In this document: piece after piece, positions 1-62,365 of the stretch
Position numbering within the stretch: the first letter of the stretch is position 1
Layout: each line of letters opens with the position of its first letter
Source of the DNA: Acidobacteriaceae bacterium
GTDB taxonomy: Bacteria; Acidobacteriota; Terriglobia; Terriglobales; Acidobacteriaceae
Length of the DNA stretch: 64,000 bases
Reading direction: 5' to 3'
Assembly (NCBI GenBank): GCA_028283625.1
Contig: JAPWKG010000031.1
Location: 1 to 64,000 of the forward strand
Translations under genes and position numbers: made by a program
Notes under the pieces: generated by a model
What the model saw: the letters and a program-made list of their open reading frames with translations, nothing else
Database searches by the model: none
Told to the model about the DNA's origin: nothing

Positions 1-114
1 GTGTTTCTCGTGCTGACCCTGATGGGCCTCGGCACGATGTGGATGGCGGTATTCGCCGATGTCGGCGCGAGCTTGCTGGTCGTCGGTAATGGCTTGCGTC
101 TGCTGCGCAAATGA
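1..114 (+). CDS. C-terminal end of a heavy-metal P-type ATPase (partial)
   Basis: The frame is open from the first base to TGA at 112-114 and encodes 37 residues. The peptide has the pattern MAVFADVGASLLVVGNGLRL close to its end. This matches the last transmembrane segment of CadA/ZntA-type heavy-metal translocating P1B ATPases, where a conserved Asp and an SLLVxxNxLRL pattern lie near the C-terminus. The catalytic domains lie outside the window, so the metal specificity cannot be read. It ends shortly before the convergent AraC gene. Confidence 0.7.
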   Translation: MFLVLTLMGLGTMWMAVFADVGASLLVVGNGLRLLRK

Positions 115-204
115 ATGAGCGGTAACCGGCGTGGGCGTTTTGTTTTGCGCCCGGCAATCGGTCGCGACGGCTTCAACGCTGGCCAGCGGCCAGCCCACGC
201 GCGG

Positions 205-1233
205 CTAGTGAGCCAACCCCGCCTGACGACCCGCTGCCGCCCTCAACGTCTCCGAAGGCCGCATGCCGAACATCTTGCGGTAATCGGTCGCGAACTGGCT
301 CAGATGCCAGAAGCCCCACGCTGCCGCCACGTCCTGCACCGAGCGCGATTCACGTGCGGCATTCGACAGATCGCGTCGTGCGCCATTCAAACGGATCGCG
401 CGCAGATACGTGGCCGGTGCCATGTTGAGCACATCCTGAAAGCAGTACTGCAAGGTTCGACGGCTCACGTGCAGCTGTTCGCACAACTCAGGCACGTTGA
501 TCGCGCGATCCCGATTGGCCAGCACATAGTCGCGCGCTTCCCACACAATCGACTGACGACGCGGACGCGCAGGCATCGCAAGCTGTTCGGCCGCCGACAA
601 CGCGCCGGCGTCGAACAGCGATGCCAGCACCGAAGCTTGCATGCTGTCACGCGCCGTTGATGTCAGCGAGGCACCACTCGCCGCGCCTCCAGCGAGCAAT
701 TGACGCAGCAGCGCACACAATTGCTCCTTGCGCTGCGCACCGATCGACACGACCTCCGTGTTCGGCAGACGCTCGTCGAGGCTCACGCCCTCGACCTCCG
801 CCGCATAACGACGCAACACTTCGCCCGTCACCACCACGCCGAAAATCTCATAACCCGCCGACGTCAGCAGTTCGAACTCGATCCCTCCCTGACGAAACGC
901 CAGCGCATCAGCAGAAATAGTTTGTGCATCGATTCGTCCCGTACCCAAAGGACAAGTCGGAATGCCGAACCAGTACGCGTCCTTCTGCACTTCACAGGTT
1001 TGCCGCAGCGTGTGGCTCGTCGTTTCGACGAACACCTGCATATGATCGACGCACAACTCGGTCAGGCCGCCGACGAAGCAGCCCGCGGTCAACTGGTCAT
1101 AAGTCTGGTTCCAGCCGTGCAGATTGCGCGCCTGCTCGTCGGCGTCATACGCGACGTGTGTCTGCACGCGGAAGCTCGGCTGCGAGGTCAGCGTGGCAAG
1201 TGTCAGGCGATCGTCTCGGGCATCAATCGTCAT
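205..1233 (-). CDS. AraC-family transcriptional regulator (EutR/FeaR-like)
   Basis: This 342-residue protein has a C-terminal AraC DNA-binding region of about 100 residues with two helix-turn-helix units (visible motifs: LCEQLHVSRRTLQYCFQ and WGFWHLSQFATDYRKMFG). The N-terminal part is of the FeaR/EutR effector-binding type (AraC_binding_2-like). The frame stays open upstream to 1452, but I chose ATG at 1233 because the upstream residues look non-coding and family members start at this point. It is divergent from the aldehyde dehydrogenase at 1558, with the ethanolamine genes nearby. This suggests it controls ethanolamine or acetaldehyde catabolism, which is inference from context. Confidence 0.85.
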   Translation of the reverse strand: MTIDARDDRLTLATLTSQPSFRVQTHVAYDADEQARNLHGWNQTYDQLTAGCFVGGLTELCVDHMQVFVETTSHTLRQTCEVQKDAYWFGIPTCPLGTGRIDAQTISADALAFRQGGIEFELLTSAGYEIFGVVVTGEVLRRYAAEVEGVSLDERLPNTEVVSIGAQRKEQLCALLRQLLAGGAASGASLTSTARDSMQASVLASLFDAGALSAAEQLAMPARPRRQSIVWEARDYVLANRDRAINVPELCEQLHVSRRTLQYCFQDVLNMAPATYLRAIRLNGARRDLSNAARESRSVQDVAAAWGFWHLSQFATDYRKMFGMRPSETLRAAAGRQAGLAH

Positions 1234-1557
1234 ACGAGATGGGCGCAGTAGGAAGATCAAGCCGCTGAAGAAGGCAATTCCCATGCCGAATTCGCTCGCA
1301 GCCTTCGCTGTTTGAAAAGCCACTGCGACCGCCGCCCCCTGCTCAATTGCTGAACACCCTTGCGAGGCCTGCTCAGAAACGCAGCGCTCTATCGCCAGGA
1401 ATTGAGCACGACGATGCGAGCAGGGGCACTGTGGCGCCTTTTCAACGTGCACGGATCACCAGCACGGTGCATTGGCACGCTTCTAGCTCTAGCCCGTCAC
1501 GGTCGAGCGAAATATCTCACCGTATATAGCCCATTCAAACATGTGAGGAGCACACAG
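1234..1557. promoter_or_regulatory. Divergent regulatory region between araC-type gene and aldehyde dehydrogenase
   Basis: This 324-base gap separates two divergent starts and should hold promoters for both. I see a sigma-54-like site (listed separately) and a purine-rich ribosome binding site (GAGGAG at about 1545-1550) before ATG 1558. I identified no clear AraC half-site repeat. Confidence 0.5.
1473..1488 (+). promoter_or_regulatory. Candidate sigma-54 (-24/-12) promoter for the aldehyde dehydrogenase
   Basis: TGGCACGCTTCTAGCT has GG at 1474-1475 and GC at 1486-1487, exactly ten bases apart as RpoN promoters require. The -24 element TGGCAC is perfect and the -12 element TAGCT is one base off TTGCT. 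It lies 70 bases upstream of the ATG. Aldehyde dehydrogenases of the AcoD/ExaC kind are often driven by sigma-54 activators in beta-proteobacteria, but no such activator is in the window. Confidence 0.45.
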
Positions 1558-3078
<1,521 letters not shown>

Positions 3079-3161
3079 ACATCCCGGCGTTTTTTAACGC
3101 TTACGAGTTGGTTCGGGCGGGCCGCATTGTGCGGCTCGCTCTTTTTCAGCGAGGCCATGTG

Positions 3162-3557
3162 ATGACCGATGAAAAGAAAGTCGCACGCGTAATCGCGACG
3201 CCTGCCGCCATCGAGTTGATCGACAAATTACGCGCCGAACATGGGGACGTGATATTCCATCAATCCGGTGGATGCTGCGACGGCAGCGCACCGATGATGT
3301 TTCCGCAGAACGAGTTCATGGTCGGAGGCTCCGATGTGAAACTCGGCTTCATTGCCGGCGTGCCGTTTTATATGAGCGAATCGCAATTCGAATACTGGCA
3401 GCATACGCAGTTGATCATCGACGCGGTGCCGGGCAACGGCGGGATGTTTTCTCTGGAGCGTCCCAGCGGCCTGCGGTTTCTGACGCGCTCCAGGCTTTTC
3501 GAAGACGACGAGAATGCGTGGCTCGAAACGCATCCTGTGGAGAAAGCGGACGCGTGA
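3162..3557 (+). CDS. DUF779 family protein
   Basis: This 131-residue cytosolic protein belongs to DUF779. It shows the HQSGGCCDGSAPMMF motif with paired cysteines near residue 35 and the LERPSGLRF region near the C-terminus. DUF779 genes commonly sit directly downstream of AcoD/ExaC-type aldehyde dehydrogenases, and this one follows 83 bases after such a gene, probably in one transcript. The biochemical role is not established; the conserved cysteines suggest metal or redox chemistry but that is speculation. I chose ATG 3162 over the longer open frame because the homology begins here. It is convergent with eutC, only 11 bases apart. Confidence 0.88.
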   Translation: MTDEKKVARVIATPAAIELIDKLRAEHGDVIFHQSGGCCDGSAPMMFPQNEFMVGGSDVKLGFIAGVPFYMSESQFEYWQHTQLIIDAVPGNGGMFSLERPSGLRFLTRSRLFEDDENAWLETHPVEKADA

Positions 3558-3568
3558 CCGATGGTGTA

Positions 3569-4369
3569 TTACGTCGCGCCCGGATTTGAGTGGTCACTCA
3601 CGACGGGCGTGGCGGGCGTGTCCGCGAGCTGATGTGCGTCGCTGTCGTCTTTCAGACCAACACCGGTGAGCCCCAGACGCCGCCCATTGGTCAGCAGGTA
3701 ATGGAGCTTGTGCGCGGCCAGCGGATAGTCGAGTCCTTCGGGACGCACGTTCGATATGCAATTGCGTTGCGCGTCGCTGCAACCCACTTTTGGCGCGTAG
3801 GTCAGGTAGACGCCGAGGCTATCGGGCGAACTTAACCCCGGCCGCTCGCCGATCAGCATCACCACCATTTTTGCCTTGAGCAATTCGCCGATCTCGTCGC
3901 CGAGCGCGACGCGCGCCTGACGCGCAACCACCACGGGTCCGATCTTCCAATCCTTCAATTGCGGGCATAAGGTCTGCAGCAGCGGAATGGCTTGCTTCGA
4001 TGCAGCGAACGCGGAAAGACCATCGGCGATGACGAACACAACGTCGCTTGATTCAGCCTCAAGCTCCAGGAGTGCCGCGCGACTCTGTTCCGATAAACGC
4101 CTGCCCAGATCGGGGCGCCTGAGGTAATGCTCTCGATCGGGCGCGGCGCTATGCGCGTCCAGCGACGTGAAGCCTTGCGCACGTAGCTGCTCATGCAGCG
4201 CTTCGGTATCGAGCGGATGATGCACGGCGTCACGTGCCTGCGCATGCGACAGGTTGAACGCCAGCAACGGCGCAGTCGGCAAACTGCTGCCCGCGCGGCC
4301 CAATGCGATGCGTGCATTGGTGAACTGCCGCAATGCATTCCATGGATTCTTTTCGAGGAAGTCGCTCAT
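3569..4369 (-). CDS. eutC: Ethanolamine ammonia-lyase small subunit
   Basis: EutC (266 residues) forms the adenosylcobalamin-dependent ethanolamine ammonia-lyase with EutB, converting ethanolamine to acetaldehyde and ammonia. Recognisable features are TNARIALGRAGSSLPT near the N-terminus, the SDVVFVIADGLSA segment, the GERPGLSSPDSLGVYLTYAP signature and the C-terminal RPEGLDYPLAAHKL stretch. The start at 4369 overlaps the eutB stop by four bases (ATGA), which points to translational coupling. The frame is open upstream to 4840, but that part is an antisense-type shadow of eutB. No microcompartment genes are present, so this is the short, permease-linked ethanolamine pathway. Confidence 0.95.
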   Translation of the reverse strand: MSDFLEKNPWNALRQFTNARIALGRAGSSLPTAPLLAFNLSHAQARDAVHHPLDTEALHEQLRAQGFTSLDAHSAAPDREHYLRRPDLGRRLSEQSRAALLELEAESSDVVFVIADGLSAFAASKQAIPLLQTLCPQLKDWKIGPVVVARQARVALGDEIGELLKAKMVVMLIGERPGLSSPDSLGVYLTYAPKVGCSDAQRNCISNVRPEGLDYPLAAHKLHYLLTNGRRLGLTGVGLKDDSDAHQLADTPATPVVSDHSNPGAT

Positions 4370-5760
4370 GCAATCCCCATCCAGTCGCTTGCGCCTTCGA
4401 GCAGCGGCTGTTGCGGCGATGCGCTCAGCAACGCGCCGCGCGCGTCGGTGATCTGCATCGACTCGAGCCATTCTTCGAATTCCGGCGCCCGGCGCAAGCC
4501 GAGGACATCGCGCACATAAAGCGCGTCGTGGAAGGACGTGCTTTGATAATTGAGCATCACGTCGTCGGCGCCCGGAATGCCCATGATGAAATTGATGCCG
4601 GCTACGCCGAGCAGCGTGAGCAGGTTGTCCATGTCGTCCTGATCCGCTTCCGCGTGGTTGGTGTAGCAGATATCGCAACCCATCGGCACGCCGAGCAGCT
4701 TGCCGCAGAAGTGATCTTCGAGGCCCGCGCGCGTGATCTGTTTGCCGTCGTACAGGTACTCGGGTCCGATGAAGCCGACCACCGTGTTGACCAGGAACGG
4801 ATTGAACTTGCGCGCGACCGCATATGCGCGCACTTCGCATGTCTGTTGATCGACGCCGAAATGCGCGTCCGCCGATAACGCGCTGCCCTGCCCCGTTTCG
4901 AAGTACATCAGGTTATTACCCACGGTGCCGCGTTTCAGCGATAAACCCGCTTCATACGCCTCCTGCAACAACGCGAGCGAAATGCCGAAGCCCGCGTTCG
5001 CTTTCTCCGTTCCCGCGATCGATTGAAATACCAGATCGACCGGTGCGCCTTTTTCGATGGCGGCAATCGTGTTGGTAACGTGGGTGAGCACGCACGATTG
5101 GGTCGGCACCTGGTAGCGCTGACGAAAATCGTCGATCATCACCAGCAGCTTTGTAATCGCGGCGAGATTGTCGCTCGCCGGGTTGATGCCGATCATCGCA
5201 TCGCCGCAACCGTACATCAGCCCGTCGAGCATCGATGCGGCAATGCCCTTGACGTCGTCGGTCGGATGATTCGGTTGCAGACGCACCGACATGCGCCCGG
5301 GCAAACCCACCGTGTTGCGAAAGCGCGTAATCACCGGACGTTTACGCGCTGCCGCGATCAGATCCTGATTGCGCATCAACTTCGACACCGCCGCGACCAT
5401 CTCCGGCGTGAGGCCGGCGGCGATACGCGTGAGCGCGTCGGCATCGGTCGTGCTGCTGAGCAGCCAGTTACGGAAATCGCCAACCGTGAGATGCGCGATC
5501 TCGGCGAACGCCTGCGGCGAGTGATCGTCGATGACGAGTCGCGTGACCTCGTCGCTCTCGTACGGGATCAGCGCTTCGTTGAGGAACGTGCGCAACGGCA
5601 CCTGCGCCAGCGACATTTTTGCAGCGACCCGCTCTTCTTCGCTGGCCGCCGCGACGCCCGCGAGCTGGTCGCCGGAACGTTGCGGACTGGCCTTAGCCAT
5701 CAGCGTTTTCAGATCGGCAAACCGATACGTTCGACTGCCGATCGACTCGGTGTAGCTCAT
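4366..5760 (-). CDS. eutB: Ethanolamine ammonia-lyase large (catalytic) subunit
   Basis: The protein has 464 residues, close to the usual 453-467 of EutB. The TIM-barrel subunit is recognisable from NTVGLPGRMSVRLQPNHPTD, GLMYGCGDAMIGINPASDN, TGQGSALSADAHFGVDQQT, the VGFIGPEYLYDGKQI segment, and the C-terminal MGCDICYTNHAEADQDDMD and INFIMGIPGADDVMLNYQ stretches. It binds substrate and, with EutC, adenosylcobalamin. It lies between the permease upstream (48 bases away) and eutC downstream (4-base overlap), giving the operon order permease-eutB-eutC. No truncation or missing motif is seen. Confidence 0.97.
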   Translation of the reverse strand: MSYTESIGSRTYRFADLKTLMAKASPQRSGDQLAGVAAASEEERVAAKMSLAQVPLRTFLNEALIPYESDEVTRLVIDDHSPQAFAEIAHLTVGDFRNWLLSSTTDADALTRIAAGLTPEMVAAVSKLMRNQDLIAAARKRPVITRFRNTVGLPGRMSVRLQPNHPTDDVKGIAASMLDGLMYGCGDAMIGINPASDNLAAITKLLVMIDDFRQRYQVPTQSCVLTHVTNTIAAIEKGAPVDLVFQSIAGTEKANAGFGISLALLQEAYEAGLSLKRGTVGNNLMYFETGQGSALSADAHFGVDQQTCEVRAYAVARKFNPFLVNTVVGFIGPEYLYDGKQITRAGLEDHFCGKLLGVPMGCDICYTNHAEADQDDMDNLLTLLGVAGINFIMGIPGADDVMLNYQSTSFHDALYVRDVLGLRRAPEFEEWLESMQITDARGALLSASPQQPLLEGASDWMGIA

Positions 5761-5808
5761 GATTACGACTCCATCGCCGTTGCTCGCGCAGCGGCTCGAT
5801 TCGCCACG

Positions 5809-7212
5809 TCACTCTTCAAGCAAAGCGTCCGACGGCGCTGCTTCGCGTTGATGGCGCGTCGCCAGGAAATACCCATAACCTAGCGCGAGAAAGATTGCGA
5901 ACACAATCGCCACCAGAAAATTGAAGTAAACCATCGTCGCCAGACAGATCACCGCGGCCACCAGCGCGAACGCCGGAAAGAACGGAAACAGCGGCGCGCG
6001 GAACGGACGCTCCATGTTCGGCGCGGTACGGCGCAGCTTGAACAGCGACAACATGCTGATGATATACATCACGATAGCGCCAAACACCGACATCGTCACG
6101 ATGTTCGCCGTCAGCGTCTGGCCGCCGAACTGGATCAGCTCGTCGCTGTAGATCGCCGCGATGCCGACCACGCCGCCCGCGAGAATCGCACGATGCGGCG
6201 TCTTGAAGCGCGGATGCACCTTCGAAAGCCACTCCGGCAAATAGCCCGCGCGAGCCAGCGCGAAGATTTGCCGCGAATAGCCAAGGATGATGCCGTGAAA
6301 CGACGCGACGAGTCCGAAGAGGCCGAGCCACACGAGCATATGCATCCACCCGCTATGTTCGCCGACGATGAATTTCATCGCTTGCGGCAGCGGGTCGTTG
6401 ATGTTCGACAGCTTGGTCCAGTCGCCCGCCGCGCCCGCAAACACCATCACGCCGATGGCGAGCACGACCAGCGTCAGAATGCCGGTGACGTAGGCGATCG
6501 GAATCGAGCGCTTCGGATTTTTGGCTTCTTCAGCGGCCATCGCGACACCTTCGATCGCGAGGAAAAACCAGATCGCGAACGGAATCGCCGCGAACATGCC
6601 GTGAAACGAGCCCATGCTGAAGGTGTTCGCGCCCGACCAGCCACCCGCTGTGAAGTTCGACCAGCGAAAGCCTGGCGACACGACGCCCATGAATACGAGC
6701 AGTTCGAAGATCGCGAGCAAGGTCACGCATAGTTCGAAGGCGGCCGCGATCTGCACGCCGACGATGTTCAACGCCATGAAGACGAGATACGCGCCCATTG
6801 CCGCGTGTTTCGGTTCGAGCCCGGGGAATTGCACGTGCAGATAGGCGCCGATGGCGAGCGCGATCGCGGGTGGCGCAAAGACGAATTCGACGAGCGTTGC
6901 GGCGCCCGCGAGATAACCGCCGGTCGGACCGAACGCCTGGCGCGCGTAGGCGAACGGGCCGCCCGCGTGTGGAATCGACGTGGTGAGTTCGGTGAAACTG
7001 AAGATGAAGGTCGTATACATCGCGGCAATAAAAATCGCCGTGATGACGAAGCCGAGTGTGCCCGCGCTTGCCCAGCCATAACTCCAGCCGAAATATTCAC
7101 CGGAAATCACGAGGCCGACCGCGATGCCCCATAGCTGCCATGTGCCCAGCGTCTGCTTGAGCTCGTGATGCATGATTTTGCCGAGGGGCTGACTGCTGGA
7201 CTCTGATTTCAT
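5809..7212 (-). CDS. eat: Ethanolamine permease (APC superfamily)
   Basis: This 467-residue polytopic membrane protein has about 12 hydrophobic segments and belongs to the amino acid-polyamine-organocation family. The GIAVGLVISGEYFGWSYGW start and FAIEGVAMAAEEAKNPKRSIP-type consensus (seen as LAIEGVAMAAEEAKNPKRS) are characteristic of the ethanolamine permease subgroup. It should import ethanolamine across the inner membrane. It is the first gene of the permease-eutB-eutC operon. The ATG at 7212 is preceded by a GGGAGC sequence. Ethanolamine rather than amino-acid specificity is supported by both the sequence pattern and linkage to eutBC. Confidence 0.93.
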   Translation of the reverse strand: MKSESSSQPLGKIMHHELKQTLGTWQLWGIAVGLVISGEYFGWSYGWASAGTLGFVITAIFIAAMYTTFIFSFTELTTSIPHAGGPFAYARQAFGPTGGYLAGAATLVEFVFAPPAIALAIGAYLHVQFPGLEPKHAAMGAYLVFMALNIVGVQIAAAFELCVTLLAIFELLVFMGVVSPGFRWSNFTAGGWSGANTFSMGSFHGMFAAIPFAIWFFLAIEGVAMAAEEAKNPKRSIPIAYVTGILTLVVLAIGVMVFAGAAGDWTKLSNINDPLPQAMKFIVGEHSGWMHMLVWLGLFGLVASFHGIILGYSRQIFALARAGYLPEWLSKVHPRFKTPHRAILAGGVVGIAAIYSDELIQFGGQTLTANIVTMSVFGAIVMYIISMLSLFKLRRTAPNMERPFRAPLFPFFPAFALVAAVICLATMVYFNFLVAIVFAIFLALGYGYFLATRHQREAAPSDALLEE

Positions 7213-7494
7213 CGGATGCTCCCGGGGTTGGCGTTGGTGCGTAGCGTCGGTTCATTACGTTTACGCGTGAGCCGACAGGCTTCAGCCGATGGTAGGGAGC
7301 CATTATTCGAGGGTGTTATCGAAATTCGGCAAAGTTTTGGGCGAACGGAGGTTTGTTAACTTCGAACTGCCATCGCGTTTACGTCGATTCGTTCCGTAGA
7401 CGTTAACTCCGCAGGATTTGGTAAACGGGGACGTGGTACTTTTGGTTTCGCTTGATTCGCATCCATTCACAGGCTCCTTTTTATCCGCTCTTTC
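7213..7494. promoter_or_regulatory. Divergent promoter region between eat and AraC/GyrI regulator
   Basis: This 282-base gap lies between divergent genes. It holds two GTTTACG heptamers (near 7258 and 7376) and two GTTAAC hexamers (near 7355 and 7399). The same words recur in the non-coding stretch after the regulator gene. They could be operator sites for the adjacent regulator; no binding site is proven. Confidence 0.35.
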
Positions 7495-8361
7495 ATGAAC
7501 GATTCCAGTAGTCGTGCCCGGTATGAAACGCGGCTGGCACGCGTGCTTGACCATATTTACGATCATCTCGATGAGCCGCTCGATATCGAGAATCTGGCGG
7601 AAATTGCCTGTTTGTCGCCTTATCACTGGCATCGAATTTATCAGGCGATGTATGGCGAGACGGTCGCTACGACTGTGCGGCGGTTGAGGTTGCATCACGC
7701 GGCCGGTTATCTGGCGAACAGTTCGATGTCGATTGGGGAGATCGCCGAGCGCTCGGGTTACAGCAGTTTGCAGTCTTTTTCCCGTACTTTTCGCGCGGTG
7801 TTCGGCGTGCCGCCGGCGCAGTATCGCAAGCGAGGTACGCATAGCCGGTTTCGTCCGGCACTCTCAGGAGACGATCAAATGACGACGCGTGAAGTGGTGA
7901 TTCGTTCTGTCGAGCCGTTTACGCTTTTATCGGTCGATCACGTTGGGCCGTATATGCAGATCGGCAAGGCGTTTGATGCTTTGTTCGGCTGGCTTGGCCG
8001 ACATCATTTGCTGGAAGCGGAAATGCGGATGATCGGGATTTATTTCGATGATCCCGGTGTGGTTGATGAAAATGCGTTGAGGTCGAAGGCTGGGGTTTTG
8101 TTGCCGCAGCGGGTGTTGGCGGCCGTGACGGTGAGTTCGCCGGTTTCGGTGGTTGCAGTGAGAGGCGGGGAATATGCAGTGTTGCGGCATAAAGGTCCGT
8201 ATAGCGATATGCGAGCGGCTTATGAGTGGTTGTACGGGACGTGGCTTGTGCAGTCCGGTCGTGAAGCGGCGGATGCCCCAGTGTTTGAGGAGTATTTGAA
8301 TAGCCCAAAGGACACGGCGCCTGCGGAGTTGTTAACGGAGATCTGTTTACCGTTGGCATGA
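7495..8361 (+). CDS. AraC-family regulator with GyrI-like effector domain
   Basis: The 288-residue protein has an N-terminal AraC DNA-binding domain, about residues 8-108, with two helix-turn-helix units (LAEIACLSPYHWHRIYQAMYG and IAERSGYSSLQSFSRTFRAVFG), then a linker. A C-terminal GyrI/SbmC-like small-molecule-binding domain starts near residue 125 (REVVIRSVEPFTLLSVDHVGPY) and ends in a typical EEYLNSPKDTAPAELLTEI motif. The architecture matches Rob/BmrR-like multidrug or stress sensors. It is divergent from the ethanolamine permease, but no sequence evidence links it to ethanolamine. No strong Shine-Dalgarno site is visible before ATG 7495. Confidence 0.9.
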   Translation: MNDSSSRARYETRLARVLDHIYDHLDEPLDIENLAEIACLSPYHWHRIYQAMYGETVATTVRRLRLHHAAGYLANSSMSIGEIAERSGYSSLQSFSRTFRAVFGVPPAQYRKRGTHSRFRPALSGDDQMTTREVVIRSVEPFTLLSVDHVGPYMQIGKAFDALFGWLGRHHLLEAEMRMIGIYFDDPGVVDENALRSKAGVLLPQRVLAAVTVSSPVSVVAVRGGEYAVLRHKGPYSDMRAAYEWLYGTWLVQSGREAADAPVFEEYLNSPKDTAPAELLTEICLPLA

Positions 8362-9091
8362 CGGTTGGGTATACGCGGGTTGATGTTTACCGGGGGGGGT
8401 TTACGTCGTTGGCCGGATTGCTCCTTGCTCGCTTGTGCAGCGGGCTCTCTGGTTGCTTCTCTGGTTTTTATATTCTTTGTATACGTATACGTAGTAATAG
8501 TTAACAAGCACCGCGTCTGGCTGTGGATAACTTGGAACTTCGTTTACGTATCAACGAGCTGCGTAAACCATAAGCCTGCAGAGTTAACGCGGATAGCAAC
8601 ACGGAGCCAGGGACAACTTTTTGATGACCCGGTTAACCAACGTTGTTATCAAGGTTTCGCCCACAAGCTGCCAGGGGGCTTGTACAAAAGTTATCCAGAG
8701 GGGGGTGTGGATAAGTTTGGGGCCGGGAAGTCGAAGGCCGGTGTGTTTTCGGCGTGGCTGTGCCGTGGTCGATCTCAAATCGGGCTGTGCATGTTGATTG
8801 CATTCCAGGCTTCCGACGGAGCTTGATGCCGGTAATAACCAAGCCTAGAAGAAAAGCGAATGCCAGGCGCGTAATGAACCGAAAAGCGGACCTCAAATCA
8901 AAGATGAACGGAATTACATTCCGGATTCACTCAGCTCTGAATAGAAATTATGCAATTAGTACCGGCTCGAGATTTTGACTACCGGCATTGGTCAGGCTCA
9001 TTTAATGCGAAATAGATGTAAAGCGGATTGTCGACCGCAATGCGTCATATCGAACCTATAATTACGCAGCCTTCGACACGGAGTTGATTGC
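8362..9091. other. 730-base non-coding stretch with DnaA-box-like sites
   Basis: No convincing gene is present. Perfect DnaA-box words (TGTGGATAA) occur at 8522-8530 and 8706-8714, and a one-mismatch copy (TTATCCAGA) at 8691-8699. Also present are GTTAAC palindromes at 8500, 8583 and 8632, a 12-base palindrome GTATACGTATAC at 8479-8490, and inverted GTTTACG/CGTAAAC arms at 8542-8548 and 8562-8568. This density suggests a replication origin or its control region in the beta-proteobacterial donor, but no replication gene is adjacent. The last 200 bases are richer in A+T and carry nothing I recognise. Confidence 0.4.
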
Positions 9092-9600
9092 ATGCGTTTG
9101 TTTACTCCGAAATGCCCCGTCACTGGGCTAGCTAAGGTGTCTCGTTCATATCGTGTTCCAACTCATCCGGTAGACGAACCTTGGCAAATGGCGAAAGACT
9201 ACTGCCAGTGGCTAGGGACAGAGAGCAATCTCCTATTGACCTGCCTACCGAAGCGCAGTGGGAATATGCTGCCCGATCCGGTGGCAACAATGTTGCATTC
9301 GCCACAGAAAACGGCAAGTACGACCCCGACCGCAATTTTCCGAGCTCAGACAGGATAGCCGACAAGCTCGCTCCGGACGTTGGAATCGTTCGGATGTATC
9401 TTTATCCCGTTGGCAAATATCCAGCCAATCCACCGGGGTTGTTCGATATGAGATTTGATGGACGTGACTGGGTCAATGACTGGTTTGGCGCCGACTACTA
9501 TGCAAAGTCCGCGGTAAAAAATTGCCTGGGTAGATGGGCTCTTCGCCTCGATTGGCCTGGAGCACGGCCGCCGCTCGACTCGTTCAGGAACCTGGGCGGA
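9092..9600 (+). pseudogene. Degenerate formylglycine-generating (FGE/SUMF1)-like fragment
   Basis: Two frames together read as the middle and later part of an FGE-sulfatase family protein. The first frame, from 9092, gives HPVDEPWQMAKDYCQWLGTES. A second frame from about 9227 then gives IDLPTEAQWEYAARSGG, a hallmark SUMF1-domain motif, and WVNDWFGADYYAKSAVKN. The switch between frames lies near 9220-9230. The N-terminal part of the domain is absent and the 3' end fades into the junction with acidobacterial sequence after about 9,525. It is therefore a frameshifted, doubly truncated remnant. FGE homologues oxidise a Cys or Ser in sulfatases or act as other iron/copper oxidases. Confidence 0.7.
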
Positions 9601-9613
9601 CGGCTTTCGCGTA

Positions 9614-10553
9614 AAACCGCCGAAGTCTTCGCCGGGCAAGCTGCCTGTCAGCCGCAAAGCGCCGGGGATTGAACGTGTGCCGGGCTGGGAGAAGTACTCC
9701 TGGCTGAACGCTGGGTTTTCAACCCGGCTTAACGGCGCGTCTACGATTTACAACTATGACGATCGCGGTGAGCTGAATCTGGGCTGGAACGGTGAGGACT
9801 CTGTCGAAGCCGTTGCAGAGAAAACCGCCGTTTTGTAAAGGCGATTGGCGGAAAGCAAGCCGGTGAGCTGGTAACGATTCGCCAGACGCATACGCCGATC
9901 GTGCAGGTCATCGGGGCTGAGCACACGGCCTTGTGCACGGCCGAAGGCAAAGCGGTTCTGCGTGGCGATGCGATGGTGACGCGCCAGAAAGGGCTGCTGC
10001 TCGGTGTACAGACCGCGGATTGCGTTCCGGTGCTGATCGCGGACACGAAAAAGCGTGTCGTTGCGGCGTTCCATGCGGGTTGGCGCGGAACGCTGGCGCG
10101 GATTGTGGAGCGCGGTGTGGGAACCATGCGTCTGCAGTTTGGCTCGCGTCCGCAGGATCTGGTTGCGGCGATTGGTCCTTCGATCGGTAGCTGCTGCTAC
10201 TCGGTGGGCGAAGAGGTAAAGTTCGAGTTCGATTCGCAGTTTGCTTATGCTCCCAAACTCTTCTCCAGGAGGTCTATGATTCTGACCCCGTACGCGACAA
10301 ATACCCGCTTCTGTTTCTGACCGCTCGCGCGCCAGTGCATTCGCCGATAGGTCCGCAGATCCATCTTGATCTTCAGGAGGCAAATCGCCGTCAGTTGCTC
10401 GATGCAGGCTTGTCGGCCAAGAAGATCACCGTCATGGGTGAGTGCACGGCTTGCACGCGTCTTCCGAACGGAAACCGCAAATACTTCTCGCACCGCGGGG
10501 AGAGCGGATTTACTGGGCGGATGCTGAGCGTAATCGGCGTACAGCAGGACTAA
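9614..10553 (+). pseudogene. pgeF: pgeF/yfiH (multicopper polyphenol oxidase, laccase-domain) with two frameshifts
   Basis: Three consecutive frames spell one PgeF/YfiH protein. Segment 1 (about 9623-9820) has GFSTRLNGAS and LNLGW. Segment 2 (9820 to about 10265) has the metal-site motifs GVQTADCVPVLIAD, FHAGWRGT and GPSIGSCCY. Segment 3 (to TAA 10553) has FLTARAPVHSPIGPQIHLDL and GECTACTRLPNGNRKYFSHR. The first shift is one extra base in GAGAAAACC near 9820, and the second is two extra bases in CTCTTCTCC near 10265. No start codon is visible because the 5' end abuts the Burkholderia-like segment. The family edits peptidoglycan or acts on purine nucleosides. Frameshifts may be sequence errors. 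Confidence 0.85.
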
Positions 10554-10580
10554 GAACGCCACGGGCGGATTGCTGTTCAA

Positions 10581-10656
10581 CCAGACACGGGCTCTTCCGA
10601 GAGAAGAGCCCCCTGTCTGGAAACGGCCCAGGGATAAATCCTCCCCGGGCCGTTTT
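10581..10656 (+). terminator. Tandem hairpins after pgeF
   Basis: A long imperfect hairpin (10581-10597 pairing with 10603-10620, core GGGCTCTTC/GAAGAGCCC) is followed directly by a second hairpin. In the second, AACGGCCC at 10622 pairs with GGGCCGTT at 10647, followed by a short T run (10653-10657). The second has the form of a rho-independent terminator for pgeF. Confidence 0.7.
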
Positions 10657-10843
10657 TCGCGTTGCAGATCCACTTTGTCTTTGTGGTGCGCAGCTTGGTT
10701 CTTTGTGGTGCGCAACCTGGTTGTAGCCTGGGGAAACTCGACCGGAGATCGCAGGAACTACTCCCCGCAGAGCGTCCTACGCGTAGCTGGGTAACCTCAA
10801 AACATGCTTCTGTGGCGATCGTGCGTCCGCCAGAGAGGGGAAA

Positions 10844-12565
10844 TTACGCTTTCTTCCCCAGCTCTGTGAAGAGCGTATCGCGATGCCGCAAGGCATACTC
10901 GTCCATCAGCCCGAGGTTCTTGCGATAGACGAAGGCTGCGCCGAGCGCTAGTGCCAGCGTTGCGGCAGGAAAGAGCCACGGGAAGCGGACAGCCTCTGAA
11001 AGCCGCATCAGCGCCCATCCTGCGGCTGCTGTCAATAGCAGGATGCCCATGCTGAGCAGGGCGCTCAGAGGGCTCGCCTGCTTTTGGGCTGTGCGCGTCA
11101 GGTCAATTTTCCTGGGGGTATTGATGGAGCGGTAGTTGCCGAGGGTGGTTTCAATCAGCAGCGTCATCGCCGTCCAAAGCACACCGCCGAGCAGCACGGG
11201 GAGAGGGGGCACGCCTACCAGGTAGATGATTACTCCCAGGATCACCGCAACGTCCACGACGGCCAGCACGGAGTTCAAAATGTTTTTGGCCAGCAGCACA
11301 TCACGCACACGTACGGGCGCAAAGAAGAAGAGTTGCGCTCCCGTGCCGTCTAGCCCGAAAGAGTTATAGCTGATGGGAACGATGCCGAGCAGGGCGTAGG
11401 CCAGCGAGGCGCCGAAGATCCAGGTGCTGTTCTGGTGCCTTGCCAGTCTTCCGGCAAAGAGCACAACCATGACGATGGGAGCAACGAGACCATAGATTAG
11501 CCCCGTATTGCGGCGGAGGTAGAGGAACTCTCGCCGGAGCAGGGCCTGGAGCACCGTGGAAGCGGAGGGCGGCGTGCGTTCCTCCGCCTCGGAGATGCTG
11601 TGCGCAGGCAAGGCAGAGCGCGGCCCGGTAGAGCGCTTGGATGGACGGGGAACAGCGTTGGCGGCGTCGCTGAGTGATTCCCCACGATACTCGGCGCGCA
11701 TGCGAACAGAGAACACAAGTAGGAAGAGCAGGCCGTAAGTCGCATCGGCAGTAACCTCTGCGGCAAAGAGCGCAGGCTGTCTCTGGTGCGCAGCCGTGAT
11801 CGAGTCCGCGCAGAGTCCCGGAGGGAGTAAATGCAGCACGGGAGCGGCTGCGTGGTAGATATGCTGCAGCTTCTGGGCGCGCTCGCTGAGGGCGTGCACG
11901 GTGGGTGTGCCACGCTTATCGAAGGCCGGGTTGAAGTGGACGTTCGCCCACTGGAACCCTACGGAGAAGAGGAAGATAAGCGCGGTAAACAGCTCTCGCG
12001 CACGGCGTGTGGAGAGCCACCGGTCGATCCACACAAAGATCATGCGGGTGAAGAGCAGGTTAACCAGAGTAAAGACCGTCAGCGCGATGAGCGCCGCGAG
12101 CCAGAGTTGAGGTTTCGCGATGACGATGCCGATCGCTGCTGCTGCTGTAAGTAACGACACCATGACGTTACCAGGGCCGATGAGCCCAAAGAAGAGCCGG
12201 ACCAGCACATACGAGCGCAGGTTCATCGGAAAGCGTATGAGCTGAGTCGGATCGAAGGTCGTCCCCGGCGAACCGAGGTTGATGTTCACCAGCTGTGCCA
12301 GAGCAAAGATGGCCCAGAACACTGCGGCCAGCAGGTTGAAGCTTCCTTTCTGCACCAGAGCCCAGGCAAAGAAGCCTACGCCGAAGGCCAGTGATGCGAC
12401 GAAAAGCAAAAAGAGCGGGATGATCAGAATCCAGGCAAGCAGATCGCCGCGGTTGCCTTTGCCACGAAAGCCATTGAGGAAGATGCGCCAGCGCAGGCGC
12501 GTAATTGCCCAGTACTGCGCACGCTTTTGCTCCCCGGTCCAGGGAGCTGTGCTTAGCTCAGCCAT
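10844..12565 (-). CDS. ABC transporter permease (ABC-2 type, large)
   Basis: This 573-residue protein has many hydrophobic segments: a cluster at about residues 45-185, another at about 350-465, and C-terminal ones after 485, separated by a polar loop rich in Ser/Pro at about 295-330. It shares a 13-base overlap with the upstream ATPase gene at 12553, so the two form one exporter operon. The substrate is not indicated. The arrangement of a 570-residue permease with a single ATPase is common in acidobacterial exporters of unknown cargo. Its stop lies near 10844, and about 190 bases of spacer separate it from the convergent pgeF terminator. Confidence 0.8.
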   Translation of the reverse strand: MAELSTAPWTGEQKRAQYWAITRLRWRIFLNGFRGKGNRGDLLAWILIIPLFLLFVASLAFGVGFFAWALVQKGSFNLLAAVFWAIFALAQLVNINLGSPGTTFDPTQLIRFPMNLRSYVLVRLFFGLIGPGNVMVSLLTAAAAIGIVIAKPQLWLAALIALTVFTLVNLLFTRMIFVWIDRWLSTRRARELFTALIFLFSVGFQWANVHFNPAFDKRGTPTVHALSERAQKLQHIYHAAAPVLHLLPPGLCADSITAAHQRQPALFAAEVTADATYGLLFLLVFSVRMRAEYRGESLSDAANAVPRPSKRSTGPRSALPAHSISEAEERTPPSASTVLQALLRREFLYLRRNTGLIYGLVAPIVMVVLFAGRLARHQNSTWIFGASLAYALLGIVPISYNSFGLDGTGAQLFFFAPVRVRDVLLAKNILNSVLAVVDVAVILGVIIYLVGVPPLPVLLGGVLWTAMTLLIETTLGNYRSINTPRKIDLTRTAQKQASPLSALLSMGILLLTAAAGWALMRLSEAVRFPWLFPAATLALALGAAFVYRKNLGLMDEYALRHRDTLFTELGKKA

Positions 12566-13368
12566 GCCAACTCTCCCTCCTGGGATGCGTTGGCCAGTGG
12601 GTGGTCTTTGCCGACGATGTTGAGGAAGATCTGCTCCAGGGTGAGCGTTTCTCCCGCTGGGGTCGCTGCATCCGGATGCAGGCGGGCCTGAACGCCCGCG
12701 CGAAGCTCTTCCAGTGCACCGTTGGCAACGATGTGGCCGCGATCGATGATGGCGATATGGGTGCAGAGGCGCTCGACGATCTCCAGCACGTGCGAGGTGA
12801 GGAAGATCGTGGCGCCGCGAGCGATCATGCCCTGCAGCATGTTCTTCAGCGTCACGGCTGCGACGGCATCTACGCCCTCAAAGGGTTCGTCGAGAAACAG
12901 CACCTTGGGGCCGTGAATGACGGCTGCAGCCAGGGCCAGCTTTTTCCCCATGCCATGGGAGTAATCCGCGAGCAGCTTTTTGCTCTCATTCGCCAGTCCC
13001 ATGAACTCGAGCAGCTCATCGCTGCGCTGCGCTGTGGTGCGCTTGTCCAGCCCATACATCTGCCCAACGAAGTGCAGGTACTCGGAGGCCGTTAGCTTGC
13101 CGAACAGCGCCATGCCTTCGGGAACAACGCCGATGTGGCGTTTGACTTCAACAGGATTGGCAAACAGGTCGTGACCAAGAATGCTGATCTGTCCGGCCGA
13201 GGGCGCCAGCAACCCGGTAAGCATCTTGATGGTGGTCGATTTGCCTGCGCCGTTTGGTCCCAGAAAGCCAAAAAACTGACCTGGTTGCACGTCAAGGTCT
13301 ATGTGGTCGACTGCTGTGAATTCATGGAAGCTGCGGGTGAGACCGTGTGCGGCGATAGCGGCTGACAT
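12553..13368 (-). CDS. ABC transporter ATP-binding protein
   Basis: The protein has 271 residues from ATG 13368 (MSAAIAAHG). Visible ATPase motifs are Walker A GPNGAGKSTT, the Q-loop region before VVPEGMALF, the signature YSHGMGKKLAL (the ABC-2 exporter variant of LSGGQ), Walker B VLFLDEPFEGVD, and the switch His in FLTSHVLEIVERL. A longer open frame to 13434 runs through a perfect hairpin (13384-13414), so the shorter start is preferred. The gene ends inside the start of the permease gene, a 13-base overlap. It energises export by the adjacent membrane protein. Confidence 0.92.
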   Translation of the reverse strand: MSAAIAAHGLTRSFHEFTAVDHIDLDVQPGQFFGFLGPNGAGKSTTIKMLTGLLAPSAGQISILGHDLFANPVEVKRHIGVVPEGMALFGKLTASEYLHFVGQMYGLDKRTTAQRSDELLEFMGLANESKKLLADYSHGMGKKLALAAAVIHGPKVLFLDEPFEGVDAVAAVTLKNMLQGMIARGATIFLTSHVLEIVERLCTHIAIIDRGHIVANGALEELRAGVQARLHPDAATPAGETLTLEQIFLNIVGKDHPLANASQEGELAWLS

Positions 13369-13383
13369 GCGTCCACCATACGT

Positions 13384-13414
13384 GACAAAGGCCGGTTTGT
13401 GGCCGGCCTTTGTC
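13384..13414 (-). terminator. Hairpin between HU-like gene and ABC operon
   Basis: GACAAAGGCCGG pairs perfectly with CCGGCCTTTGTC across a seven-base loop. It lies downstream of the HU-like gene (minus strand) and upstream of the ABC ATPase start. It lacks a clear T run, so it may attenuate rather than fully terminate. Confidence 0.55.
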
Positions 13415-13455
13415 GTGGATTCTTGTGTGTGCACTATGCCGACACAGATGCGTCG

Positions 13456-13788
13456 CTAAGTCGTTGGGGTATCGCCGGTGGAGGGCTTTTCGAGCGGGAG
13501 GCTTCTTGCTCCCCCCGGATTCACGAGATCCCGCAGATCCTTGCTGGGTTTGAAGTAGGGCACGCGCTTGGCCGGTACATCGACCTTGGCGCCGGTCTTG
13601 GGATTGCGGCCGGTGCGCGAGTTGCGCTTGCGGGTGCGGAACGAGCCGAAGCCTCGTACCTCCACCTTGTCGTCTGCCTTTAGCGCCTCAGTAATTGCGC
13701 CAAAAAGGAGATCTACGATTGTTTCTCCATCCCGACGAGTGAGGTCGCCCAGTGCGATCACCTGATCGACGAGGTCGGCTTTTGTCAT
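13456..13788 (-). CDS. HU/IHF-family DNA-binding protein
   Basis: This 110-residue histone-like protein opens with MTKADLVDQV and carries the DNA-binding arm motif FGSFRTRKRNSRTGRNPKTG followed by VPYFKPSKDLRDLVN. These are hallmark HU/IHF features. HU proteins bend and compact DNA as dimers. The last 18 residues (after the RDLVN region) form a Ser/Pro/Thr-rich tail beyond the usual 90-residue core, as seen in some Acidobacteria. It stands alone between the ABC operon and a 339-base gap. Confidence 0.93.
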   Translation of the reverse strand: MTKADLVDQVIALGDLTRRDGETIVDLLFGAITEALKADDKVEVRGFGSFRTRKRNSRTGRNPKTGAKVDVPAKRVPYFKPSKDLRDLVNPGGARSLPLEKPSTGDTPTT

Positions 13789-14074
13789 CTGTCACAGCTC
13801 CAGAAGAAGTGGAAGTACATGGCCCGGGTTCGGCAGAAGCCAAATTAGAAATTAATTGTAGCGGGTTGCGACATAGTGTCACCCTTGCGTTCTGAGTTAT
13901 AGACGTAGGAGAACGGCAAAAGGACCACAGTTTTCGATCCATTCGATTGATTTCGAGCGCATTACGGCTCGCGGCGCCATTTTGGCGCAGGTTTTCTCCC
14001 CCGACGCTTCTATTCGGAAGTCTGGGGATGCGTCGTTTTCTGCCGTCTGCTTCTGCCGGGGATGGCGGAAAACG
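13789..14074. other. Intergenic gap upstream of the HU-like gene
   Basis: The part nearest the HU-like start, including the AT-rich AATTAATTG at about 13850, should contain its promoter. I found no gene or repeat in the rest. Confidence 0.4.
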
Positions 14075-14110
14075 AATCTGGCTCCGTCCTTCTGTGGACG
14101 GAGCCAGATT
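14075..14110 (-). terminator. Terminator of sppA
   Basis: A perfect 15-base stem (14075-14089 with 14096-14110) has a six-base loop. On the minus strand it is followed by CGTTTTCC. It lies 17 bases after the sppA stop. Confidence 0.8.
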
Positions 14111-14127
14111 TCTCGCCGAAAGCGTGT

Positions 14128-15156
14128 TTACTTCCAGAGAAAGTAGAAGCCCGGAGAGCGGTTCAGCATTTGCGAGGGATTGGGGAAGAGGCTGTCTGCA
14201 TCGTCGTCGCCATTGAGCAGAGCCAGCAGCCCGCGCTTCTCCTTGGGGGACTTTACGACGTGAGGTTTGCCCTTGATGCCAACCGCGAGCGCGGTATCGT
14301 GCAGAGCCTCCCGGTAGCCTCCCTCGGCGTCGATGAGCCCGAGCGGAAGTGCTTGCTGCCCGGTCCAGACCTGTCCGGTGGCCAGCGGGAGAATCTTGTT
14401 CTCCGTGGTGTGGCGGCCAAGGGCAACGTCATGAACGAACTGTCCGTACATGTTGTCGACAAGTCCCTGAAAGTACGCTTCTTCCTTCGGCGTGAGCTCG
14501 CGCGTTGGGTCTCCTGCGTCCTTCAACTCGCCCTTGCTGATGGTGATGTTCTTCATCTTGGCCCAGTGCAGCAGCTCGCCGTAGTTGGTCCACTGCATGA
14601 TGACGCCGATTGAGCCGACCACGGAGGCCTGGTTGGCGTAAATCTTGTCGCACGCGCTGGCGATGTAATAGGCGCCGGAGGCGCCGACGCTCTCTACGGA
14701 GGCGGCAACGTACTTGTGCTTGTCGGTGCGTATGTGCAGAACTTCGTGATAAATCTCCTGCGAAGCGGCCGCTCCGCCTCCGGGCGAGTTGATGCGCAAC
14801 AGGATGGCCTTTACGTCGTCCTCATTGCCAAACTTTTCAAGCTGCTTATCGAGTTTGTCTGCGTCTGTGATGACACCGTTGATCTCGACCACCGCGATGG
14901 AGTCCTGGCCATAGGTGGGGATGGAGGTGGTGTCGCCCGAGTTCAGCAGGTTCTTCATCGTTGAGGCTGCGATCGCCGCAAGGATGATGACAATAACGCC
15001 GATGAGCGCAATGGCCAGCAGAACCCACACTCCCCCGGAGCGCCGCTGCGTAAACGAGGGAATGGGCTGACCATAGGCATAGCCATACGGTTGCTGCCCT
15101 TGTGGCTGCTGAGGCGTCTGATAGTAAGGCGGTTGTGGTGGCGGAGGCGTCGACAT
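14128..15156 (-). CDS. sppA: Signal peptide peptidase SppA (S49 family)
   Basis: This 342-residue inner-membrane protease has a Pro/Gln/Tyr-rich cytosolic N-terminus (residues 1-38), then one transmembrane helix (about 43-68) and an S49 protease domain. The domain shows VEINGVITDADK, LLRINSPGGGAAAS, the catalytic Ser region SVGASGAYYIASACDKIYAN and GSIGVIM. A lysine at about KNITISKGELKDAG fits the Ser-Lys dyad. SppA degrades cleaved signal peptides in the membrane. It is shorter than the 600-residue E. coli form and matches the single-domain type. It is divergent from the glycosyltransferase gene. Confidence 0.92.
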   Translation of the reverse strand: MSTPPPPQPPYYQTPQQPQGQQPYGYAYGQPIPSFTQRRSGGVWVLLAIALIGVIVIILAAIAASTMKNLLNSGDTTSIPTYGQDSIAVVEINGVITDADKLDKQLEKFGNEDDVKAILLRINSPGGGAAASQEIYHEVLHIRTDKHKYVAASVESVGASGAYYIASACDKIYANQASVVGSIGVIMQWTNYGELLHWAKMKNITISKGELKDAGDPTRELTPKEEAYFQGLVDNMYGQFVHDVALGRHTTENKILPLATGQVWTGQQALPLGLIDAEGGYREALHDTALAVGIKGKPHVVKSPKEKRGLLALLNGDDDADSLFPNPSQMLNRSPGFYFLWK

Positions 15157-15294
15157 GGCTCGGAGTGTAGCAGAGGACGATCCCGGCGCAAGTCCTTGCT
15201 TGTTCCGCGCTTAGGAGCGTGAACAGGATTCTTGTTTCATTTCACAACACTTCAGGCTTCCACTCTTCTACAATGACGCGGAGGTAACCTTTGC

Positions 15295-16152
15295 ATGACA
15301 ACAGGGCAGGCAGATGTGGCGCCCCCAACCGGCCGTCCCCGGCTGAGTATCGTTATACCCGCGTATAACGAAGCGGCGCGCATCGAGGGTACCCTGGAGC
15401 GCGTGGTGGGCTGCATTGCCAAGCGCAGTTGGGATGCAGAGGTCATCGTTGTGGATGACGGTTCTTCCGACCAGACGGTAGATGTTGTTCGCTACTGGAT
15501 GGAGAATCATGCGTGCGTGAAGCTGGTGCAGAACCCTGGCAATCGCGGCAAGGGGTTCTCTGTACGCAACGGCTTGTTGCAGGCCGGTGGCGAGATCGTC
15601 ATGTTTACGGATGCCGATCTGTCTGCACCGATTGAAGAAGCGGTGCGTTTGATGGATGCGCTCGAAGCCGGGGCCGATGTCGCAATCGGCTCTCGCTGGC
15701 TCGATAAGCAGAAGCAGATCGTTCATCAGCCGCTGTACCGCCGTTTCTTTGGCCGCTGTTTCAACTATGTGACGCGCCGGGTCATGGGGTTGCCCTACAA
15801 AGATACGCAATGCGGGTTCAAGGCCTTCAAGCATGATGCGGCTCAGGTGATCTTTCGTTTGCAGACGATCGAGCGCTGGGGATTTGATCCGGAGATTCTG
15901 TTCATTGCGCGCAAGCTGCGCTACAAGATTGTGGAAGTGCCCGTAACGTGGGGGCACGATGAGCGTTCGCGTATCTCGTATCTGAAAGATGGCATGAAGA
16001 TGCTGGAAGAGATGGCGCAGATCCGCACGAACTCTCTGCGCGGCAAGTATGACGAAGCGATTGCGGCATACAAAGACACCTCGACGATGACAACACCGCA
16101 GGTCGATCATCGCGAGTCTGGGCCGCATCCATCCGGCGTGCAGGCGCGGTGA
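15295..16152 (+). CDS. Glycosyltransferase family 2, DPM1/ALG5-like
   Basis: This 285-residue GT-A enzyme begins with LSIVIPAYNEAARIEGTLE, then VIVVDDGSSDQTVD, the DxD-like FTDADLSAPIEE, and the DTQCGFKAFKHDAAQ motif typical of dolichyl/polyprenyl-phosphate sugar transferases. It lacks the C-terminal membrane helices of some relatives. It likely transfers a hexose from a nucleotide sugar to a lipid phosphate for envelope glycan assembly; the sugar is not predictable. The proline dehydrogenase gene follows 53 bases later on the same strand, so they may share a transcript. Confidence 0.9.
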   Translation: MTTGQADVAPPTGRPRLSIVIPAYNEAARIEGTLERVVGCIAKRSWDAEVIVVDDGSSDQTVDVVRYWMENHACVKLVQNPGNRGKGFSVRNGLLQAGGEIVMFTDADLSAPIEEAVRLMDALEAGADVAIGSRWLDKQKQIVHQPLYRRFFGRCFNYVTRRVMGLPYKDTQCGFKAFKHDAAQVIFRLQTIERWGFDPEILFIARKLRYKIVEVPVTWGHDERSRISYLKDGMKMLEEMAQIRTNSLRGKYDEAIAAYKDTSTMTTPQVDHRESGPHPSGVQAR

Positions 16153-60299: not shown

Positions 60300-60375
60300 G
60301 GGCCTGTGGCGCAGCTGGGAGCGCGCTTCCATGGCATGGAAGAGGTCATCGGTTCGATCCCGATCAGGTCCACCA
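60300..60375 (+). tRNA. tRNA-Ala (GGC)
   Basis: The 76-base cloverleaf has acceptor GGGCCTG pairing with CAGGTCC, a D stem GCGC/GCGC, the anticodon stem CTTCC/GGAAG around loop ATGGCAT (anticodon GGC), the T arm ATCGG-TTCGATC-CCGAT, and an encoded CCA. The anticodon reads the alanine codon GCC. The 3' half is copied downstream (61840-61891). Confidence 0.93.
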
Positions 60376-60381
60376 ATAAAT
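60330..60381 (+). repeat. Attachment-site copy 1 (tRNA-Ala 3' end)
   Basis: This 52-base stretch, from inside the anticodon stem to 6 bases past CCA, is identical to 61840-61891. Such a repeat is the classic footprint of tyrosine-recombinase integration into a tRNA gene: this copy restores the tRNA. Confidence 0.9.
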
Positions 60382-60681
60382 TCAAGCATTTAGAAGTTCC
60401 TCCCTTCCGCTACCTTGTAGCAATCTTGTAGCAAATCTCAACTTCGCAATTCGAGCGGACTTTGGCTTCGCGGCTTTGTCGTGTCCTTGTGACGCCGATT
60501 GGGGCGTCTTCCGGCTCGGCAGAGTCTTTTTCGTGCGGGTCAGCTCTTCGTGAATCGAGTTGATCGCCACTCGAACTTCGGGTTCCAGCGACTGCATGTA
60601 GATATCGGTGGTAGTCGATGCCTTCGAGTGCCGCATCATCCCTTGGATATCCTTCACATGCCCCTTCGACTTGCCCAGTGA
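60382..60681 (-). pseudogene. Tyrosine recombinase (integrase) C-terminal remnant
   Basis: The frame ends at TGA 60382-60384, directly against the tRNA 3' repeat, as for integrases of tRNA-borne elements. It reads VKDIQGMMRHSKASTTTDIY, matching the last catalytic box of phage-type integrases (G/RHS...T..IY, with the Tyr nucleophile). A tail follows, with LEPEVRVAINSIHEELTRTK. The N-terminal and central domains (including the first Arg box) are absent, so it is a truncated remnant. The track of the frame further upstream (60682-60738) does not look like integrase. Confidence 0.78.
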
Positions 60682-60821
60682 TTGGGAGATAACAACAGAT
60701 AGTGGCAAACCGAAGACTTCCACCGGGCTGGCTGGCACACCAGGCCGCAGCCGTTTCTATCCTAAGGTTTTCTGTGCGACTCTAAAAAGGATGTTCAATG
60801 TCCCGATATTGGAGTGTTTCG

Positions 60822-61544
60822 ATGAAACTGACAGGGAAAATCGTGTTGGTGACTGGTGGGACAGACGGCATCGGCGCTCAGTTAATTCGCCAGCTTCGAT
60901 CAAAGGGAGCCCATGTGCTTACCTCCGGTCGTAATCCGTTACGGATAGCAGCCACTCGCGCCGACGGGTTCGAGGTCATTGAGGCGGATATCAGCAGTCA
61001 AGCCGGGATAGATAGCTTAATTACGCAGTTGAATGGTCGAGTGGTCGATATCCTCATCAATAACGCGGGGTTGATGGACGAGTACGACCTTGAGCGAGGC
61101 AGCCCCGAGCCACAGCAGATCGAACAGGTACTCTTCGTCAACATGCACGCTCCGATACAACTCATCACTGCTTTGCTTCCCGTGTTTCAAGAACGACAGG
61201 AAGCAGCGATCGTGAATGTAACCTCAGGAAATGCCGTAGCACCACGAGCAAAGTCTCCTGTCTATAGCGCGACGAAGGCAGGGATACGAAGCTTTACCCA
61301 GGCATTACGGTTTCAGTTGGCAGGATCGAACATTCAGGTCATTGAAGCATTGCCTCCCGGTGTGGAAACGGCGATGAACAAGAACAGCAAACGAAAGACC
61401 ATGTCTGCGAAGGAATGTGCTCGGCAGATCGTTGTGGGGATAGAACGCAACCAGGATGAAATCAATGTTGGACAGGTGAAGCTCCTCCAATTCGCCAATT
61501 CCATCTCACCTGCTCTGGCTCGTTGGATTATGCTTCGCTACTGA
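60822..61544 (+). CDS. Short-chain dehydrogenase/reductase (SDR), DltE-like
   Basis: The 240-residue protein starts from ATG 60822 (GGAG 7 bases upstream); an upstream ATG at 60798 is also in frame. The Rossmann site VLVTGGTDGIGAQLIRQL, the NNAGLMDEYD motif, the catalytic SGNAVAPRAKSPVYSATKAG with Tyr-x3-Lys, and the substrate-side LPPGVETAMN are all intact. The family oxidises or reduces small alcohols or ketones with NAD(P); substrate is unknown. It is cargo of the tRNA-Ala element. Confidence 0.9.
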   Translation: MKLTGKIVLVTGGTDGIGAQLIRQLRSKGAHVLTSGRNPLRIAATRADGFEVIEADISSQAGIDSLITQLNGRVVDILINNAGLMDEYDLERGSPEPQQIEQVLFVNMHAPIQLITALLPVFQERQEAAIVNVTSGNAVAPRAKSPVYSATKAGIRSFTQALRFQLAGSNIQVIEALPPGVETAMNKNSKRKTMSAKECARQIVVGIERNQDEINVGQVKLLQFANSISPALARWIMLRY

Positions 61545-61839: not shown

Positions 61840-61891
61840 CATGGCATGGAAGAGGTCATCGGTTCGATCCCGATCAGGTCCACCAATAAAT
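61840..61891 (+). repeat. Attachment-site copy 2 (tRNA-Ala 3' end fragment)
   Basis: This is an exact 52-base copy of 60330-60381, lacking the 5' half of the tRNA gene, so it is not a functional tRNA. It marks the far end of an integrated element. Confidence 0.9.

Positions 61892-62030: not shown

Positions 62031-62365
<335 letters not shown>

Follow-up and report, generated by a model that had tools for sequence, protein, structure and literature searches.

Among Paraburkholderia, ethanolamine utilisation is encoded by a chromosomal region in which genes for an aldehyde dehydrogenase, a DUF779 protein, eutCB, a permease and an AraC/GyrI-type regulator follow one another. The same gene order is found at the very beginning of contig C10 of the acidobacterial assembly studied here. 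The two differ downstream of the regulator: a gene of the FGE family directly follows in only two of the 69 loci compared (some of which end early), namely L058 of Paraburkholderia sp. BCC1884 and L021, whereas C10 carries an FGE remnant at this place. In three other loci, a more divergent FGE gene (38-39%) lies at a distance of several kb.

The second system suitable for comparison is the chimeric contig of metagenome-assembled genomes. In the passage of the GUNC paper used here, such contigs join two lineages (PMC8201837), as C10 does, and the contamination estimate for the assembly holding C10 is low, 1.82%. That passage deals with computational misassembly, whereas the 3-base junction and error-rich flank of C10 rather suggest a chimeric molecule or read. 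Our literature search returned general papers on chimerism or microbial communities, and, judged by title, none of those listed concerned this assembly.

The Paraburkholderia-type block at the contig start

The window analysed comprises the first 64,000 bases of C10 (137,532 bases in total). The assembly (G000) spans 3.0 Mb in 31 contigs with an estimated completeness of 84.8%. A 16S rRNA search of it gave no match, and the same search was positive in only nine of 14 control genomes. The right side of C10 is called acidobacterial on the basis of the initial annotation and of gene content. Since the window starts at base 1 of C10, the Burkholderia-type block occupies the very end of the contig. 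It includes the following features.

1..8717, no strand: foreign Paraburkholderia-type chromosomal block, collinear with P. metrosideri L012 (89.2%)
205..1452, minus: AraC-family regulator ORF (HTH_18, 1e-24)
1360..3078, plus: aldehyde dehydrogenase ORF (Aldedh, 2.9e-161)
3108..3557, plus: DUF779 protein (DUF779, 2.8e-45)
3569..4369, minus: ethanolamine ammonia-lyase light chain EutC (EutC, 3.2e-95; 266 aa from 4369, MSDFLEKN being the presumed start)
4366..5760, minus: ethanolamine ammonia-lyase large subunit EutB (EutB, 3.2e-224; NF011649, 738.6 bits, above cut-off)
5809..7212, minus: ethanolamine permease (TIGR00908, 707.9 bits, above cut-off)
7495..8361, plus: AraC/GyrI-like regulator (GyrI-like, 1.3e-37; HTH_18, 8.5e-23)

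Window positions 1-8717 form a single collinear alignment with the P. metrosideri locus at 89.2% DNA identity. Six of the seven genes have no indel relative to this locus. In the remaining one, the AraC ORF, five small indels fall at 1249-1339, close to its listed start, and the true start of this regulator probably lies inside the listed ORF. The best relative of the 7495-8361 protein is also found in P. metrosideri (94% protein identity). In total, 69 of the 74 loci related to this protein were compared. Of the 35 listed, 20 (P. metrosideri and 19 others) align collinearly with the window, in a single block or in two, starting no later than about 239 and reaching at least about 8714. The left block is ordinary Paraburkholderia-type chromosome, from a species that has no close genome among those found.

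No Pfam family was found for the next ORF, 8365-8823. The intergenic stretch at 8440-8720 is kept in Paraburkholderia (93% identity in P. metrosideri, 79% in BCC1884) and contains several words resembling DnaA boxes. Shorter partial copies of it (71-86%) occur elsewhere on the same contigs, two in G021 and three in G022.

A plasmid was considered as a source of the left block and rejected: none of 62 matching plasmid records covers 80% of window 1-12000 in one place, and the 20 records listed cover 12-20% of it at 75-88% identity.

Composition was assessed with a tetranucleotide log-ratio. One training set consisted of the contig starts of the assembly except those of C10, C14 and C2, the other of Paraburkholderia stretches non-homologous to the window; both exclude the window sequence. 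All 13 of the 1.5-kb segments starting at positions 1-9001 (in 750-base steps, the last two straddling the join) score above every one of 332 acidobacterial control segments, which themselves belonged to the acidobacterial training set. All nine segments starting at 9751-15751 fall within the control range. Tetranucleotide composition flips at the join, while GC content is too similar on the two sides to tell them apart (0.584 vs 0.597). The initial annotation had placed Burkholderia-type genes up to about 9.5 kb and acidobacterial ones after that, and both the collinearity with P. metrosideri and this flip bear it out.

The junction and the continuation of the acidobacterial side

The initial annotation had also located an abrupt join at 8362-9640. 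A join is indeed present, but it can be placed at 9520-9522, since 8362-9519 still belongs to the Paraburkholderia side. The features around it are listed below.

9134..9522, plus: FGE-sulfatase family gene remnant, frame broken, both ends missing (PF03781, 4.8e-13)
9520..9522, no strand: junction of Paraburkholderia-type and acidobacterial sequence with a 3-base overlap, AAT (BCC1884 homology ends at 9522, C18 identity begins at 9520)
9520..10553, plus: pgeF (peptidoglycan editing factor), 5' end missing, in three frames (tblastn pieces)
10800..11023, no strand: 224 bases of C10 that C18 lacks, 10799 being followed there immediately by 11024
10844..12565, minus: ORF called an ABC transporter permease because of the neighbouring ATPase gene (syntenic in genome G006); whole here, shortened in C18
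12553..13434, minus: acidobacterial ABC transporter ATP-binding protein (many ABC ATPase models match; the 25 listed are all below their curated cut-offs)

At the AAT, homology switches from the end of the Paraburkholderia FGE-like gene to the beginning of the acidobacterial pgeF, and the sequence is acidobacterial from 9523 on. According to the initial annotation, the FGE-like gene loses its 3' end at the boundary. It has lost that end and is frameshifted, being split over two frames (9134-9232 and 9232-9522), but it retains only residues 189-318 when compared with the open 383-codon stop-to-stop frame of BCC1884. Its N-terminal half is missing as well, which the join cannot account for, so the gene was probably a remnant already before the join. 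An additional break near 9130 is a possible alternative.

pgeF, reported to lack its 5' end and to carry frameshifts, does both: the 5' end is replaced at 9520, and the tblastn pieces 9476-9820, 9820-10266 and 10260-10550 lie in three different frames. In contrast, C18, a contig of 7,460 bases from the same assembly, has pgeF as one open frame adjoining aroDE. It is this C18 copy that was scored against TIGR00726 and belongs to the PgeF family (168.8 bits vs a cut-off of 141.15).

C18 is 98.8% identical to window 9520-10799 (nine mismatches and six gap bases) and 100% identical to window 11024-11488, where the match reaches the last base of C18. The 224 bases between these stretches are missing from it. 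The direct join of 10799 to 11024, at C18:6995-6996, is without evident shared bases and cuts the ABC permease. Since these bases are missing and the permease is cut, C18 itself is probably not error-free, and it is probably misassembled at this point. The permease ORF in the window has no NCBIfam match; a homologue of the neighbouring ATPase is found downstream of pgeF in congeneric genomes.

At its other end, C18 continues into contig C9, as C9:1-254 is identical, in reverse, to C18:1-254. The same arrangement is found unbroken in a congeneric genome: contig C1 of G006 contains the counterparts of C9 (282-3218, reversed), C18 and window 9524-15770 consecutively, with nothing inserted at the join. 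G006 also carries about 2.3 kb more than the window at window 13.8-14.1 kb.

In nine of 12 congeneric genomes (G001, G002, G004-G009 and G012), aroDE and pgeF share a strand and are no more than about 1.2 kb apart, which is the C18 order. Two genomes counted outside these nine, G003 and G010, have contigs that end before the order shows, and in G011 aroDE and pgeF are almost 9 kb apart in opposite orientation. The Paraburkholderia block does not lie beside pgeF in any of the matches listed for the 12 genomes (at most 14 candidates scored per genome). Finding this gene order in other acidobacteria would have spoken for a real transfer. Some congeneric genomes have aldehyde dehydrogenase and eutB-like stretches elsewhere, at about 65-78% identity, and C17 of our assembly carries its own aldehyde dehydrogenase with a DUF779-like stretch nearby (74% and 69%), which indicates that the genus has its own versions of these genes. 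Among the matches listed within the assembly, those to the block outside C10 and the C18 overlap are 69-85% identical.

Chimera, transfer or misjoin

By sequence comparison, the two sides of C10 resemble different lineages, the right side fits C18 and C18 continues into C9. Thus, C10 shows what marks a chimeric contig, namely sides of different lineages and a continuation of the right side elsewhere in the same assembly (C18, C9). We consider it very probable that C10 is chimeric, with 1-9519 derived from a Paraburkholderia species and the sequence from 9523 on derived from the acidobacterium, most likely joined via one chimeric molecule or read. The true left neighbour of the acidobacterial part would then be C18 bases 1-5719, followed by the continuation of C18 into C9. 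The Paraburkholderia source of 1-9519 has no close genome in the collection searched; presumably it occurred in the same sample or library. The preference of the initial annotation for misassembly or contamination over transfer gains direct support from the unbroken pgeF region on C18, linked to C9 and overlapping C10.

As to how the join arose, we infer that the two sequences met at three shared bases in a single chimeric DNA molecule or long read, which most likely formed a poorly corrected contig end, because the overlap is only 3 bases long and the differences from C18 are confined to 9520-10799. Poor correction of the contig end would explain why such differences occur within this stretch but not beyond 11024. 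With just three bases shared at the join, the probability of a pure k-mer or overlap misassembly is lower.

Several points count against a chimera. The 224-base difference between C18 and C10 means that there is at least one more break or variant, and the differences between the two copies could in principle reflect strain variation or a decaying duplicate. Identity to the nearest Paraburkholderia genome found is only 89%, and among the 30 contigs other than C10, most of them judged by their starts, composition clearly flags C14 alone, which gives no sign of bulk Paraburkholderia contamination. Misassemblies are also described as relatively rare compared with mis-binning in the relevant part of the GUNC paper (PMC8201837).

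A decaying duplicate is just what recent horizontal transfer would involve, with a Paraburkholderia ethanolamine-use fragment inserted into a duplicated pgeF-permease region. The window pgeF is frame-broken like such a duplicate, and a join sharing only three bases is what illegitimate recombination produces. However, transfer requires a duplication of about 2 kb or larger in addition to the insertion, whereas C18 and C10 simply fit the conserved gene order. The block has no visible far junction with host DNA, extending as it does to contig base 1, and its composition is fully Paraburkholderia-like. No tRNA gene was found within 1-14000. Repeats in 8300-11500 are only short and imperfect: none is longer than 22 bases, none pairs both sides above 88%, and there are no inverted repeats of at least 16 bases. 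A mobility gene, tRNA or repeat at the junction, as expected of a horizontally acquired island, was not found (small ORFs other than 8365-8823 were judged by eye). The absence of the block beside pgeF in the matches listed for the 12 congeneric genomes weighs in the same direction. We therefore regard transfer as very unlikely. Its biological counterpart, that a soil acidobacterium very recently acquired a complete Paraburkholderia ethanolamine-use set when illegitimate recombination inserted it into a duplicated pgeF region, in a mixed population retaining the unbroken form, is equally improbable.

An assembler misjoin made without any chimeric molecule, e.g., by wrong scaffolding or gap closing, would give an outcome that looks identical, and G000 does have contig ends that overlap and yet were left unmerged. 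With only three shared bases and no N in the window, the join does not fit the usual overlap, k-mer path or scaffold gap, and we give this explanation very little weight. A chimeric molecule or read remains the preferred reading.

Other suspect sites and consequences for the genome

The composition screen covered 29 other contig starts (up to 20 kb each, shorter contigs in full) and the whole of C18. Only C14 was flagged clearly and C2 weakly, so no bulk Paraburkholderia contamination is seen among these 30 contigs, and contamination of the whole assembly was rejected on this basis.

From base 1 to about 11 kb, C14 has a Paraburkholderia-like tetranucleotide composition and phage-type genes (phrog_9880, tail spike). 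Further along, an IspD gene that lacks its end (196 of 221 model positions) is continued in the same frame by a truncated histidine kinase, the two meeting at about 13.5-13.6 kb. In G006, the frame holding the homologue of this kinase stays open for about 1.2 kb upstream of the region of homology, and no match to that additional part was found in G000. Positions 1-13600 of C14 (L113) are probably a second chimeric contig start, though incomplete assembly could also hide the missing part of the kinase. Comparison of C14:1-13500 with two Paraburkholderia genomes gave no block match, the best being 1.3 kb at 71% in G022, and C14:1-13400 has no near match among plasmids. A large phage-type protein encoded at C14 3271-6105 has relatives on contigs of uncultivated viruses (34 loci, identity up to 92%).

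C2 (L102) has an atypical composition at 1-8000. Further along it, at 11609-12000, 392 bases are 99% identical to C16:1276-1667.

Two more sites were noticed towards the end of the window. At 62285-62364, 48 A are directly followed by 32 G; neither the rest of the window nor the other contig stretches examined showed another run of at least 10 A or T or at least 9 G or C. This block may be an artefact of tailing or assembly and may mark one more suspect join. Next to it, on the minus strand, is a short-chain dehydrogenase ORF (62473-62955) whose match to its model is confined to the C-terminal part. Before this block, a tRNA-Ala gene lies at 60300-60375, and its 3' end together with the following ten bases (60330-60385) is repeated directly at 61840-61895 (56 bases, 98%). 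ORF 60382-60738, between the repeats, has no Pfam family and resembles by eye the end of a tyrosine integrase, so 60300-61895 may perhaps hold a small integrated element or a relic of one.

Overall, this is a result on data quality: the acidobacterium should not be credited with the first 9.5 kb of C10, nor, probably, with the first 13.5 kb or so of C14. The completeness and contamination estimates (84.8% and 1.8%) give no hint of this. In practical terms, window positions 1-9519 should be trimmed. The join in C10 most likely arose as an artefact and has little biological interest, but left untrimmed the genome would appear to hold recently transferred Paraburkholderia ethanolamine genes together with a broken pgeF.
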